From assembly GCF_000966265.1 (NCBI RefSeq), contig NZ_LANF01000019.1:62001-126000 (forward strand): 64,000 bases of DNA, written 5' to 3'. How positions within the stretch are numbered: position 1 is the stretch's first letter; each line of letters opens with the position of its first letter. Source of the DNA: Palaeococcus ferrophilus DSM 13482 (GTDB taxonomy: Archaea > Methanobacteriota_B > Thermococci > Thermococcales > Thermococcaceae). The position numbers were made by a program, and so were the translations under genes. Of this stretch, positions 8,586 to 50,936 are shown one piece after another. A model generated the notes under the pieces. The model saw nothing but the letters and a program-made list of their open reading frames with translations, had not been told where the DNA came from and made no database searches.

Positions 8586-9623
8586 ATGGAGGAAGTGAAA
8601 TCAATTTCTGTTATAAGCAAATCGGCCCTTCAGGATCACCTCCAGAGGGAAAGCGGGCTGGTACTTGTGGCGTGCGAAGGGAGGCCAATCATGGTGCTCT
8701 CCTCCGGCAGACTCGTCCACGTCCTCGACGAAGTTCCCACTGTGCTTAAGGACGTTTCCATATACCGCATTGACAAATGGGAGCTCCTTGATGCTCTAAA
8801 CGGCGAGTTGAAGCTTCCGGAAAAGGTTGAAAAATCCCGCAGTCCAAGGGTGGTTGAGTTCTCCATGAGCCTCGACCTCCCCCCGGAGCTGTCGCTCAAG
8901 GTTGAGAACGCAATTCTCGACTTCATCAAAAGGCTGGCCCATTCCAACCTTGCGGTGAGCTCCATAAGTGCAAGCGGCAGGGTACGTCAGGGATTCACGG
9001 GAACCAACATCCTCCTTCTTCGCGTCTCCATGGGGGGCTACACTACGGGGGACGTTCCGGTGGAGGCTCTGGCGCGTGAGATGGCATCGAGCGTTGAGAG
9101 GGAGGTTGGGTTTGAAGTAAGGGTTTACATCAAGGAGGCCAGCTTCGAGCGTGTTTCTGATCTCCCGATTGTGAGGTTCACAAGGAGCTTCGTGAACTTC
9201 AGGGGTGGCAGGATAATCGAGATACCCCTTCAGCGGCAGGGTAAGGTCATTCCAAAGGTTGACAGGGCAAAGCTTGAGGCCGAGGTTGAGAGGCTATTGA
9301 AAGAGGCGGGAATTTCCCGGGAGCTTGTGGAGCTGACGAAGGAGGGAGGGGAGCGTGTAAGCGTCGGGAGCATCGAGCGCGAGGTCATGAGCGAGCTCTC
9401 GGGTATCAGGGGCGTTTCCCTAAACTGGGTGAAGCTCACGAAGGGTGCATCAGGCTACAGAGTGACCATAGGGGTTGACAGGACCTCAAGGGACGTTACC
9501 GATTCGGAGCTTATGAACGTTCTCCGGGAAGCCCTGAAGCGTGCGGAGGGAAGAATAAAGGCGCTCGGTAGGGGCGTTGGCTTCGAGGGAGCATATCTGG
9601 TGGTCGAGAGGGACATCTACTGA
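8586..9623 (+). CDS. Conserved hypothetical protein, no recognised domain
   Basis: The protein has 345 residues and is soluble: no signal peptide or membrane segment. Three parts can be seen. Residues 1-85 (MEEVKSISVISKSALQDHL; then DKWELLDALNGEL) look like a small mixed alpha/beta domain. The middle, about 90-210, has alternating strands and a KVENAILDFIKRLA helix. The C-terminal half is charged with predicted helices (DRAKLEAEVERLLKEAGI) and strands. I do not recognise it. GGGGTGAT precedes the chosen ATG; a GTG at 8577 is less likely. It ends 46 bp before RaSEA on the same strand, so the two may be co-transcribed. Confidence 0.75.
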   Translation: MEEVKSISVISKSALQDHLQRESGLVLVACEGRPIMVLSSGRLVHVLDEVPTVLKDVSIYRIDKWELLDALNGELKLPEKVEKSRSPRVVEFSMSLDLPPELSLKVENAILDFIKRLAHSNLAVSSISASGRVRQGFTGTNILLLRVSMGGYTTGDVPVEALAREMASSVEREVGFEVRVYIKEASFERVSDLPIVRFTRSFVNFRGGRIIEIPLQRQGKVIPKVDRAKLEAEVERLLKEAGISRELVELTKEGGERVSVGSIEREVMSELSGIRGVSLNWVKLTKGASGYRVTIGVDRTSRDVTDSELMNVLREALKRAEGRIKALGRGVGFEGAYLVVERDIY

Positions 9624-16876: not shown

Positions 16877-16962
16877 GCTTCCTTCTTTTTTCATGTTGGG
16901 TTTGTTCTTAGGTTTTTCTTGTTTGAATTAGCAAGAACAACACTCCACTGGGGGTTTGAAAT
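16877..16962 (+). terminator. Poly-T terminator and weak promoter before the RadA paralog
   Basis: TTCTTTTTTC right after the XOR gamma stop fits the oligo-T terminators of Thermococcales. The rest of the gap is AT-rich (GTTTGAATTAGC near 16921-16932 could be a weak TATA element). GGGGGT at 16950-16955 is the nearest ribosome site for the GTG at 16963. Confidence 0.45.
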
Positions 16963-17907
16963 GTGAACAAAGGCAGATTTTCAATAAAAGAGCTCCCAGG
17001 TGTTGATTCAACAACTGCAGAAAAACTACGAGAGGCAGGATACGATAGTGTCGAATCAATAGCAATTGCGTCCCCTTTAGAATTAAAGGAAATAGCGGGC
17101 ATAAGTGAAGGGATGGCACTTAAAATAATTCAAGCTGCTAGGAAAATAGCCAGCATAGGAATATTTACCAGCGCAACAGAGTACAAGAAAAGGCTTGAGG
17201 CTACGGACAAAATATCAACCGGAAGTGCAAATCTAGATTCAATACTGAAAGGGGGAATATGGACTGGTGTTATAACGGAGATACTTGGGGAACCCAACAG
17301 CGGGAGAACCCCCTTTGCGTATGCCCTCTCAGTAATGGTTCAACTACCCCCGGAGAGAGGAGGACTAAACGGGTCAGTAATCTGGATCGATACCGAAAAT
17401 TCATTTAACCATTATCCCCTAGAGGAGATAGCGAGAAATAAAGGTCTAAATCCCGAGGAGATTCTTAAGAACATCTACGTTGCTAGGGCGTTTAACTCTG
17501 ACCATCAAGTGTTTCTCGTGGAGAAAGCGGGAGAACTTATCGAGGAGAAAGCTAAAACAAAAAATCCGGTAAAACTGTTAGTAGTTGATTCAATTCCAGC
17601 TCATTTTCGCGTGGAGTACATCGGCAGGGGAGATCTCGCGGGAAGGCAGCAGAAGCTTGGGAAACACCTCGCAGACCTTCGGCGCATAGCAGAACTATAT
17701 AATGTGGCTGTCATCATAATCAATGATATGCGCAACGGGAATCCGTGGGGAGGACACATACTGGAACACGCTTCGATGTTTAGGCTACAGATACTCAAAC
17801 GGGGCCGTGGCAACTCGGACAAGAGAATAGTTCGCCTGATTAAGTCCCCCTACTTCGAAAGAAGTGAGGTCACATTTAGGATAACTGAGAGGGGTGTGGA
17901 GGATTGA
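16963..17907 (+). CDS. RadA-like recombinase paralog with altered Walker A (Lys to Arg)
   Basis: The protein has 314 residues and the full RadA plan: helix-hairpin-helix domain (about 10-62), the polymerisation element FTSA (68-71, fitting FxxA), ISTGSANLDSIL, an ATPase core, and a RadA-like end ITERGVED. Unlike RadA (about 350 residues), Walker A reads GEPNSGRT (109-116), with Arg115 in place of the catalytic Lys, and loop L2 is shortened (NDMRNGNPWGGHI in place of the longer N-Q-V-x-A-x-P segment). Walker B LLVVD (205-209), the glutamate of DTENSF and YIGRGDLAGRQQKL are kept. It is not RadB, which lacks the N-domain. The gene is richer in AT (AAA, ATA, GAA codons) than neighbours, suggesting acquisition. 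It may modulate RadA filaments. Confidence 0.88.
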   Translation: MNKGRFSIKELPGVDSTTAEKLREAGYDSVESIAIASPLELKEIAGISEGMALKIIQAARKIASIGIFTSATEYKKRLEATDKISTGSANLDSILKGGIWTGVITEILGEPNSGRTPFAYALSVMVQLPPERGGLNGSVIWIDTENSFNHYPLEEIARNKGLNPEEILKNIYVARAFNSDHQVFLVEKAGELIEEKAKTKNPVKLLVVDSIPAHFRVEYIGRGDLAGRQQKLGKHLADLRRIAELYNVAVIIINDMRNGNPWGGHILEHASMFRLQILKRGRGNSDKRIVRLIKSPYFERSEVTFRITERGVED

Positions 17908-18002
17908 TTTTCAAGTTTTCACATCTTTTTTGGGCGGTAATTTCGAGATGAGCAATTAACAGACAAAATTCCCGATGACTAAATTAAAGATAAAAGAAAA
18001 GC
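17908..18002. terminator. Convergent terminator region
   Basis: This gap separates two converging genes. TTTTTTGGG (about 17926-17934) can end the RadA-paralog transcript on the plus strand; on the minus strand TTTTCTTTTATC (about 17991-18002, as complement) can end the flavoprotein operon. No gene is visible. Confidence 0.45.
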
Positions 18003-19448
<1,446 letters not shown>

Positions 19449-49358: not shown

Positions 49359-50936
49359 ATGAATAAGCGTGGTACCTCTTTGTTCTTGGTTGGACTTTTT
49401 GTTTTTGCAGTGTTTGCCAGCGGATGCATCGGTGGTGGTGGGGAAACCACGTCAACCCAGTCGGGCACAACCTATGCGGAACAACTCGTTATAGGTGTCA
49501 CCGATAAGGTGACGGACATTGACCCCTCGAACGCCTACGACTTCTACACCTGGGAAGTGCTGAACAACATAATGGAGGGTCTCGTCAAGTACGAGCCCGG
49601 AACCCTTGAGATTAAGCCCGCCATAGCGGAGAGCTGGGACGTGAACGATGACTCAACCGTCTGGACGTTCCACCTGAGGAAGGACGTCAAGTTTGCCGAT
49701 GGAACTCCCCTGACCGCGAAGGACGTCAAGAGGAGCATCGAGAGGGTCATGACCATCAACGGCGACCCCGCGTGGCTCGTGACAGATTTCGTGGATAAGG
49801 TCGAGGCCCCCGATGACTACACGGTGGTGTTCTACCTCAAACAGCCCACGAGCTACTTCCTCTCACTCCTCACGACGCCGCCCTACTTCCCGGTGCACCC
49901 GAACTACGCCCCGGACAAGGTTGATAGCGACCAGACCGCGGGTGGGGCCGGACCGTACAAGATAGCGAAGTGGGTGCGCGATGAGGAGCTCGTCCTCGAG
50001 GTCAACGACAACTACTACGGTGAGAAGCCCAAGACCAAGAGGATAGTCATCAAGTTCTACCGCGACGCCTCAACAATGCGCCTCGCCCTCCAGAACGGCG
50101 AGATTGACATAGCATGGAGGACGCTCAAGCCCACGGACATAGAGAGCCTCAAGAACGAGGGCAAGTTCCAGGTCATAGAGATACCCGGCGCATTCATAAG
50201 GTACGTGTGCCTCAACACTCAGAAGGACCCAACGAAGGAGGTCAAGGTCAGGCAGGCTCTCGCCGCGGCCATAGACAGGCAGGACATCTCAAACAAGGTC
50301 TTCAGGGGAACGGTTGACCCGCTCTACTCCCTCATACCCAACGGAATGTGGAGCCACAAGGACGTCTTCAAAGAGGTTTACGGCGATGCCAACCTCGACA
50401 AGGCCAAGGCCCTCCTCAAGGAGGCCGGCTACGACGAGGGCAACCCGCTCCAGATACAGCTGTGGTACACGCCAACCCACTATGGAGACACGGAAGCGGA
50501 TCTTGCCCAGGTTCTCAAGGAGCAGTGGGAGAAGACCGGCGTCATAAAGGTGGACATAAAGAGCGCCGAATGGGGAACCTACGTTGACTACGCGAGGAAG
50601 GGCGAGATGCAGGTCTACCTCCTCGGCTGGTACCCGGACTACCTTGACCCGGACGACTACACCACACCGTTCCTCAAGAGCACCGCCAACAGCTGGGCCG
50701 GAACCGGCTACGCGAACCCAACGATGGACGAAATCCTAAGCAAGGCCCAGAGCCTCGTTGACCAGAACGAGAGGGCAAAGCTCTACGAACAGGCCCAGGA
50801 CATACTCGCCCAGGATGTGCCCTACATACCGCTGATACAGGGCAAACTCTACGTCGTGGCCCAGCCCGGCGTTAAGGGCGTCAAGATAGGGCCCGACATG
50901 ATATTCAAGTACTACACCCTCTACAAAGAGGGCTGA
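49359..50936 (+). CDS. dppA: ABC transporter substrate-binding lipoprotein, peptide type
   Basis: The protein has 525 residues. A lipoprotein-type signal, FVFAVFASGCIGGGGETT, with Cys at the lipobox is followed by a Thr/Ser-rich spacer and a family 5 binding domain (DPSNAYDFYTWEVLNNIMEG; AESWDVNDDSTVWTFHLRKD; LTAKDVKRSIERVM). It catches oligopeptides (or nickel chelates or oligosaccharides) outside the membrane. It leads a complete dppABCDF operon. I chose ATG 49359 with GGTGA before it. A T-rich tract after its stop may lower read-through to the permease genes, as binding proteins are needed in excess. Confidence 0.93.
   Translation: MNKRGTSLFLVGLFVFAVFASGCIGGGGETTSTQSGTTYAEQLVIGVTDKVTDIDPSNAYDFYTWEVLNNIMEGLVKYEPGTLEIKPAIAESWDVNDDSTVWTFHLRKDVKFADGTPLTAKDVKRSIERVMTINGDPAWLVTDFVDKVEAPDDYTVVFYLKQPTSYFLSLLTTPPYFPVHPNYAPDKVDSDQTAGGAGPYKIAKWVRDEELVLEVNDNYYGEKPKTKRIVIKFYRDASTMRLALQNGEIDIAWRTLKPTDIESLKNEGKFQVIEIPGAFIRYVCLNTQKDPTKEVKVRQALAAAIDRQDISNKVFRGTVDPLYSLIPNGMWSHKDVFKEVYGDANLDKAKALLKEAGYDEGNPLQIQLWYTPTHYGDTEADLAQVLKEQWEKTGVIKVDIKSAEWGTYVDYARKGEMQVYLLGWYPDYLDPDDYTTPFLKSTANSWAGTGYANPTMDEILSKAQSLVDQNERAKLYEQAQDILAQDVPYIPLIQGKLYVVAQPGVKGVKIGPDMIFKYYTLYKEG

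Follow-up and report, generated by a model that had tools for sequence, protein, structure and literature searches.

The RadA paralog and its altered residues

The window, which is the whole 64,000-nucleotide stretch of Palaeococcus DNA that was analysed, contains a gene for a RadA paralog, located between porG and sudA (Table 1). The paralog was found in three of 94 Thermococcaceae genomes (Palaeococcus, here G000, and two others, G015 and G038), which are also its sole carriers among 115 genomes of the phylum; all three encode a canonical RadA elsewhere. The G015 homolog (L038:10622-11572) is 64% identical to the window protein and has GGHRSGRT as its Walker A motif. The G038 homolog (L039:8278-9221) is about 68/58% identical, has the motif GESGSGRT and is interrupted by two frameshifts (L039:8855-8861 and 9106-9112).

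Table 1. Features of the RadA paralog gene and its product, in window coordinates.
Feature	Position	Strand	Remarks
RadA paralog gene	16963..17907	+	GTG start, 314 aa; homologs in two further genomes
Probable ribosome-binding site GGGGG	16950..16954	+	Inferred
N-terminal helix-hairpin-helix domain, residues 8-62, kept	16984..17148	+	Pfam HHH_5 E 7.9e-10; AF2 helices
FxxA polymerisation element FTSA, residues 68-71	17164..17175	+	Sequence alignment
Walker A GEPNSGRT, residues 109-116; Lys115 to Arg, Phe111 to Pro (homologs His/Ser)	17287..17310	+	
Catalytic Glu E145 (RAD51 E163), kept	17395..17397	+	Alignment; role from PMC7614784
Walker B region VKLLVVDS, residues 203-210, kept	17569..17592	+	
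L1 DNA-binding loop RVEYIGRGDLAGRQ, residues 216-229, kept	17608..17649	+	
L2 loop, residues 255-270: nine residues shorter; Gln to Asp at 255, Trp262, Ala to Glu at 268	17725..17772	+	
Three-residue insertion NSD, residues 284-286, common to homologs	17812..17820	+	
ATP-cap Asp to Lys294, "lysine finger" position	17842..17844	+	Asp in 41/41 RadA, Lys in 3/3 paralogs
Inserted segment between porG and sudA	16877..18002	.	Comparison with G077 and G002

A Pfam search assigns the protein to Rad51 (E 3.8e-65) plus HHH_5, and its best relative of solved structure is Pyrococcus furiosus RadA (1pzn, E 7e-112). It scores 357.7 bits against the NCBIfam RadA equivalog TIGR02236, slightly below the cut-off of 361.15, and the G015 homolog reaches 386.8 bits, above it; both exceed the cut-off of 259 set for a broader RadA model, NF003301. 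The score against the NCBIfam RadB model is 103.6 bits, far below the cut-off of 172.4, and the N-terminal domain is present, so the preliminary description was right to keep the protein apart from RadB. That description had also allowed that, were no other radA present, the gene might code for the main recombinase; the Palaeococcus genome holds both a canonical radA (C12:13320-14246), the product of which is 58% identical to the paralog, and radB (C19:347859-348545). The AF2 monomer of the paralog has a pLDDT of 86 and resembles RadA and RAD51 filament protomers, with a TM score of 0.88, for a monomer model containing no interface, both to the RadA structure bound to AMP-PNP and K+ and to 3ntu, the D302K mutant.

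The two-domain architecture and the FxxA element that characterise archaeal RadA are both present, in agreement with the earlier assignment as a RadA paralog retaining the N-terminal domain, FTSA and Walker B, whereas the Walker A lysine (GxxxxGKT) and the full-length L2 loop with NQV, which also characterise it, are replaced by R115, D255 and a short loop. In an alignment to 1pzn, the residues that bind FxxA in P. furiosus RadA, I169, Y201 and V202 (PMC4856416), correspond to I140, Y172 and V173 of the paralog. Residues were further compared between 41 canonical proteins (26 Thermococcaceae RadA and 15 from elsewhere in the class) and the three paralogs. FxxA, E145, the Walker B residue D209 and L1 are unchanged. 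The Walker A lysine and the P-loop phenylalanine, invariant in all 41, are altered in each paralog, and the RadA-invariant positions changed in all three (numbered as in the window protein) include F111 to P/H/S, K115 to R, E100 to W, R149 to N, D294 to K, R78 to L and K281 to G. The Walker A arginine, first noticed in the window protein, recurs in both homologs and is thus neither chance nor sequencing error.

From its asparagine to the Gly-Gly pair, L2 measures 11 residues in the paralog (NDMRNGNPWGG) and 20 in RadA (NQVQ..PVGG), as expected from the shortening of about nine residues reported before, and the loop is short in all three paralogs. Its glutamine is replaced by Asp255 in the two paralog rows that were aligned automatically, and also in G038, as read from the motif NDSYRG. 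An NS(D/N) insertion occupies positions 284-286, and at the ATP cap all three members have a lysine (K294) at the sequence position of a lysine finger. The positions equivalent to RAD51 V273 and F279 presumably fall within the deleted tip of L2. Judged by the tree described below and by the shared R115, K294 and short L2, this Thermococcaceae RadA-KR family is of one origin.

Origin and genomic sites

The paralogs are AT-rich in each host. GC3 is 0.435 in the window paralog, against 0.763 in the canonical RadA of the same genome, and this is the lowest value among 60 long ORFs of the window (z = -3.2, for a version of the ORF that was a little shorter). Across the three paralogs it is 0.435, 0.53 and 0.31, against 0.64-0.78 for the host genes that were compared, and the genes of an island adjoining the G015 copy have values of 0.42-0.47. 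A phylogeny, proposed earlier as a check, places the three paralogs in a single clade (support 100/100) that branches within the Thermococcus/Pyrococcus RadA radiation, apart from Palaeococcus RadA; its branches are long, and the G000 and G038 copies are sisters (100/96). Composition and tree together uphold the foreign origin that had been suspected from the codon use. Other histories were disfavoured, by modest margins and with long branches: an origin by duplication from the RadA of the host itself, which would group the paralogs with Palaeococcus and G093 (AU p 0.018), duplication prior to the split of the family (AU p 0.032) and a species-consistent pairing of G015 with G038 (AU p 0.012). 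A viral or plasmid origin found no support from direct matches, with no close relative in IMG/VR, phages or plasmids; PHROGs returned only distant UvsX-like matches and PADLOC no match. Pattern scans of the wider genome contigs, which may miss near records, gave only RadA of the canonical range, and no report of this paralog family was found in the literature searched.

Between the paralogs, third codon positions differ at about 0.64 and second positions at about 0.20, with synonymous sites saturated, which indicates purifying selection. A decaying, functionless copy of RadA would account for the long branches, the very patchy distribution and the two frameshifts in G038. The latter, however, coincide with the sole two A7/T7 runs of an 18 kb locus and are possibly sequencing errors; slippage or decay may also explain them. 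Two full-length reading frames have moreover persisted despite the saturated synonymous change, and non-random changes (the cap Asp to Lys and the insertion) are retained in all three members, which makes decay a decidedly improbable explanation.

The site in Palaeococcus was compared with those of relatives. In G077, porG and sudA are 52 bp apart with no paralog between them, and in G002 porG is followed by a sudA remnant of 21 amino acids, so the order porG-sudA is old and the paralog alone is extra. In the genus-mate G001 and in G093, porG is followed by amzA (archaemetzincin), an adjacency that had suggested transfer of the paralog, sudA and sudB into Palaeococcus as a block; G077 and G002 rule this out. 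The sudA-like oxidoreductase of the window (18003-19448, minus strand) is 93% identical to a Thermococcus copy (G031) and clusters with Thermococcus, and G001 carries solely the other type of sudA copy; sudA has possibly been replaced through homologous exchange from Thermococcus. The only direct repeat at the porG/sudA insertion is a 10-bp match judged to be chance, and no Rfam elements or tandem repeats were found near the paralog. The sequence CCGATGACTA is present three times in the window (17972-17981, 18538-18547 and 49810-49819), where 0.12 occurrences are expected; one copy is just downstream of the paralog, the copy at 18538 is within sudA, and the G015 island carries two more at its right-hand edge (L171:7550 and 7659).

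In G038 and G015 the paralog is instead found between a metallo-beta-lactamase-fold (MBL) gene and the C/D-box RNA sR55, a junction that spans about 125 bp in several other Thermococcus. The composition in each host, the tree and the gene-free sites of relatives point to a family that is horizontally moved. Downstream of the G015 copy are an integrase-like gene (phrog_216) and a Prim-Pol, in a segment of about 35 kb ending at sR55, and the paralog may have travelled with this integrase-bearing island. The insert at the G015 junction (C12 ~10.5-45.7 kb) is a 35-kb island of defence type, with type I RM, McrB-like and AbiE-like genes. The MBL/sR55 junction appears to be an insertion hotspot in Thermococcaceae (L038/L170/L171, L039, L173, L178): it holds about 5 kb in G037 and the paralog in G038, and contains a breakpoint in G025. 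In G000 the genes of the junction are about 24.5 kb apart (C14:427-26343).

This setting bears on the idea that the paralog is an anti-recombinase, which would enter mixed filaments and whose selected effect would be to inhibit host recombination, for example in the service of the mobile DNA that carries it. The AT-rich, horizontally acquired gene adjoins an integrase island in G015, and a counterpart in the halophilic archaeon DL31 is on a plasmid. Overexpression of RAD51 K133R reduces homology-directed repair (PMC8275761), and RadA is open to inhibition by archaeal paralogs, Ral1 among them (PMC7407445). The Palaeococcus paralog, on the other hand, stands alone amid host genes, without genes of an element, and hyperthermophiles depend strongly on recombination, so that a strong poison would soon be lost; we consider this explanation unlikely.

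Proposed role in RadA filaments

We tentatively propose, as a reading that falls just short of an even balance, that the paralog enters the RadA filaments of its host, where it would be a subunit of low turnover unable to exchange strands, and that it is rare and horizontally mobile. It would enter the filaments through the kept N-terminal domain, FxxA element and most of the FxxA-acceptor residues, and ATP would remain bound at its interfaces, where the cap lysine would substitute for the K+ or metal ion at the gamma-phosphate of the neighbour. In RAD51 the P-loop phenylalanine (F129) is packed against the L2 helix and, once ATP has been hydrolysed, flips to release DNA; together with an L2 alanine it forms a disassembly switch (PMC10192527). 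With this switch from hydrolysis to L2 lost, the paralog subunit would not be released, and mixed filaments would persist and protect DNA. V273 and F279 of RAD51 L2 serve in triplet stacking and in D-loop contact (PMC7618403); lacking the intercalating L2 tip, the paralog would itself be incapable of strand invasion. As residues of turnover and exchange are altered while the filament-joining parts are kept, the paralog probably locks or damps repair filaments and does no repair itself, and its net effect on them would be either stabilising or braking. Capping, which the preliminary description had listed beside stabilising and poisoning, is less likely than either of these, since RadB, Rad55 and XRCC2 act as caps through their missing N-terminal domain (PMC7618403) and the paralog has one.

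The change of the cap aspartate to lysine and the loss of the P-loop phenylalanine, in all three homologs, argue for low turnover. The Walker A arginine is a less certain guide. It had been expected from Rad51 to keep ATP binding and block hydrolysis, and this holds for human RAD51 K133R, which binds ATP without hydrolysing it and forms hyperstable, DNA-protecting filaments (PMC10681713). Sulfolobus SsoRadA K120R, however, keeps some ATPase activity and performs strand invasion (PMC9950535), which leaves blocked hydrolysis uncertain for the paralog. This residual activity, and the kept catalytic glutamate, Walker B and L1, would fit a separate recombinase with weak hydrolysis, building filaments of its own on behalf of a mobile element; with the L2 tip, the L2 glutamine and the P-loop phenylalanine lost, and canonical RadA in all three hosts, such a function is improbable.

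Besides the SsoRadA K120R activity, several points count against a low-turnover subunit. The family has three members only, one with two frameshifts. Pro111 in the P-loop could abolish ATP binding, and the charged residue at 268 may disturb the packing of L2.

Comparison with known recombinases and paralogs

Canonical archaeal RadA (1pzn and the host RadA) shares with the paralog the two domains, FxxA, the catalytic glutamate, Walker B and L1, but differs from it by the Walker A lysine, the P-loop phenylalanine, the L2 glutamine, an L2 longer by nine residues, the cap aspartate and an N-terminal extension of about 40 amino acids. RadB, reported as the sole candidate paralog in P. abyssi (PMC7407445), is likewise a euryarchaeal RadA paralog and a possible RadA modulator, but has no N-terminal domain and keeps the Walker A lysine. 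The aRadC and Sulfolobus Ral proteins (RadC1, RadC2, Ral1-3) are RadA paralogs said to aid or hinder RadA filaments. The archaeal RadA paralogs known so far have been characterised as proteins made of the core alone (PMC4080772; PMC2718504), and aRadC forms a separate clade (PMC4080772), while the protein described here has the N-terminal domain and nests in Thermococcaceae RadA; aRadC sequences are absent from our tree, and the two are set apart by description.

Another natural Walker A Lys to Arg change combined with a short L2 and a kept N-terminal domain is found in Halar_0701 of DL31 (L205:1486-2475, CP002989.1, plasmid phalar01). Its Walker A motif is GNENSGRT; unlike the paralog, it retains the cap aspartate, and DTR replaces DTE, changing the catalytic glutamate to arginine. 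Its place in the tree is among the RadA proteins of haloarchaea, and a topology uniting it with the Thermococcaceae paralogs is rejected by the AU test (p 0.0003), hence its origin is independent; other haloarchaeal plasmid or viral RadA proteins that were examined retain the Walker A lysine. Horizontal spread and this independent plasmid parallel suggest selection for control of host RadA. A wider proposition, possible but doubtful, is that archaeal mobile DNA has on at least two occasions converted a full-length RadA to a filament subunit held in an ATP-locked state (by Walker A Lys to Arg and a short L2, once with a lysine finger), a two-domain counterpart of the RAD51 paralogs that would stabilise or brake from within and not cap.

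Human RAD51B, RAD51C, RAD51D and XRCC2 also have an ATP-cap lysine, a lysine finger that RAD51 does not have, and ATP binding with no hydrolysis is known for some of them (PMC7614784); XRCC3 has no lysine finger (PMC7618403). They differ from the paralog in being non-orthologous, in forming heterotetramers and in keeping the Walker A lysine, and RAD51D and XRCC2 are without the catalytic glutamate that the paralog retains. In the stabilisation and disassembly of recombination filaments a central place belongs to the RAD51 paralogs and to RAD51 mutants that cannot hydrolyse ATP, and the paralog offers a simple thermostable system for asking whether one non-hydrolysing subunit sets filament lifetime. 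Close parallels to it are the engineered variants RAD51 K133R and D316K and RadA K120R and D302K, of which D316K and D302K stabilise filaments or remove their salt dependence (PMC10192527). Each of those carries one substitution made in the laboratory, in a protein whose L2 is complete; in the paralog, changes of the K133R and D316K types and a deleted L2 tip are combined in one natural protein.
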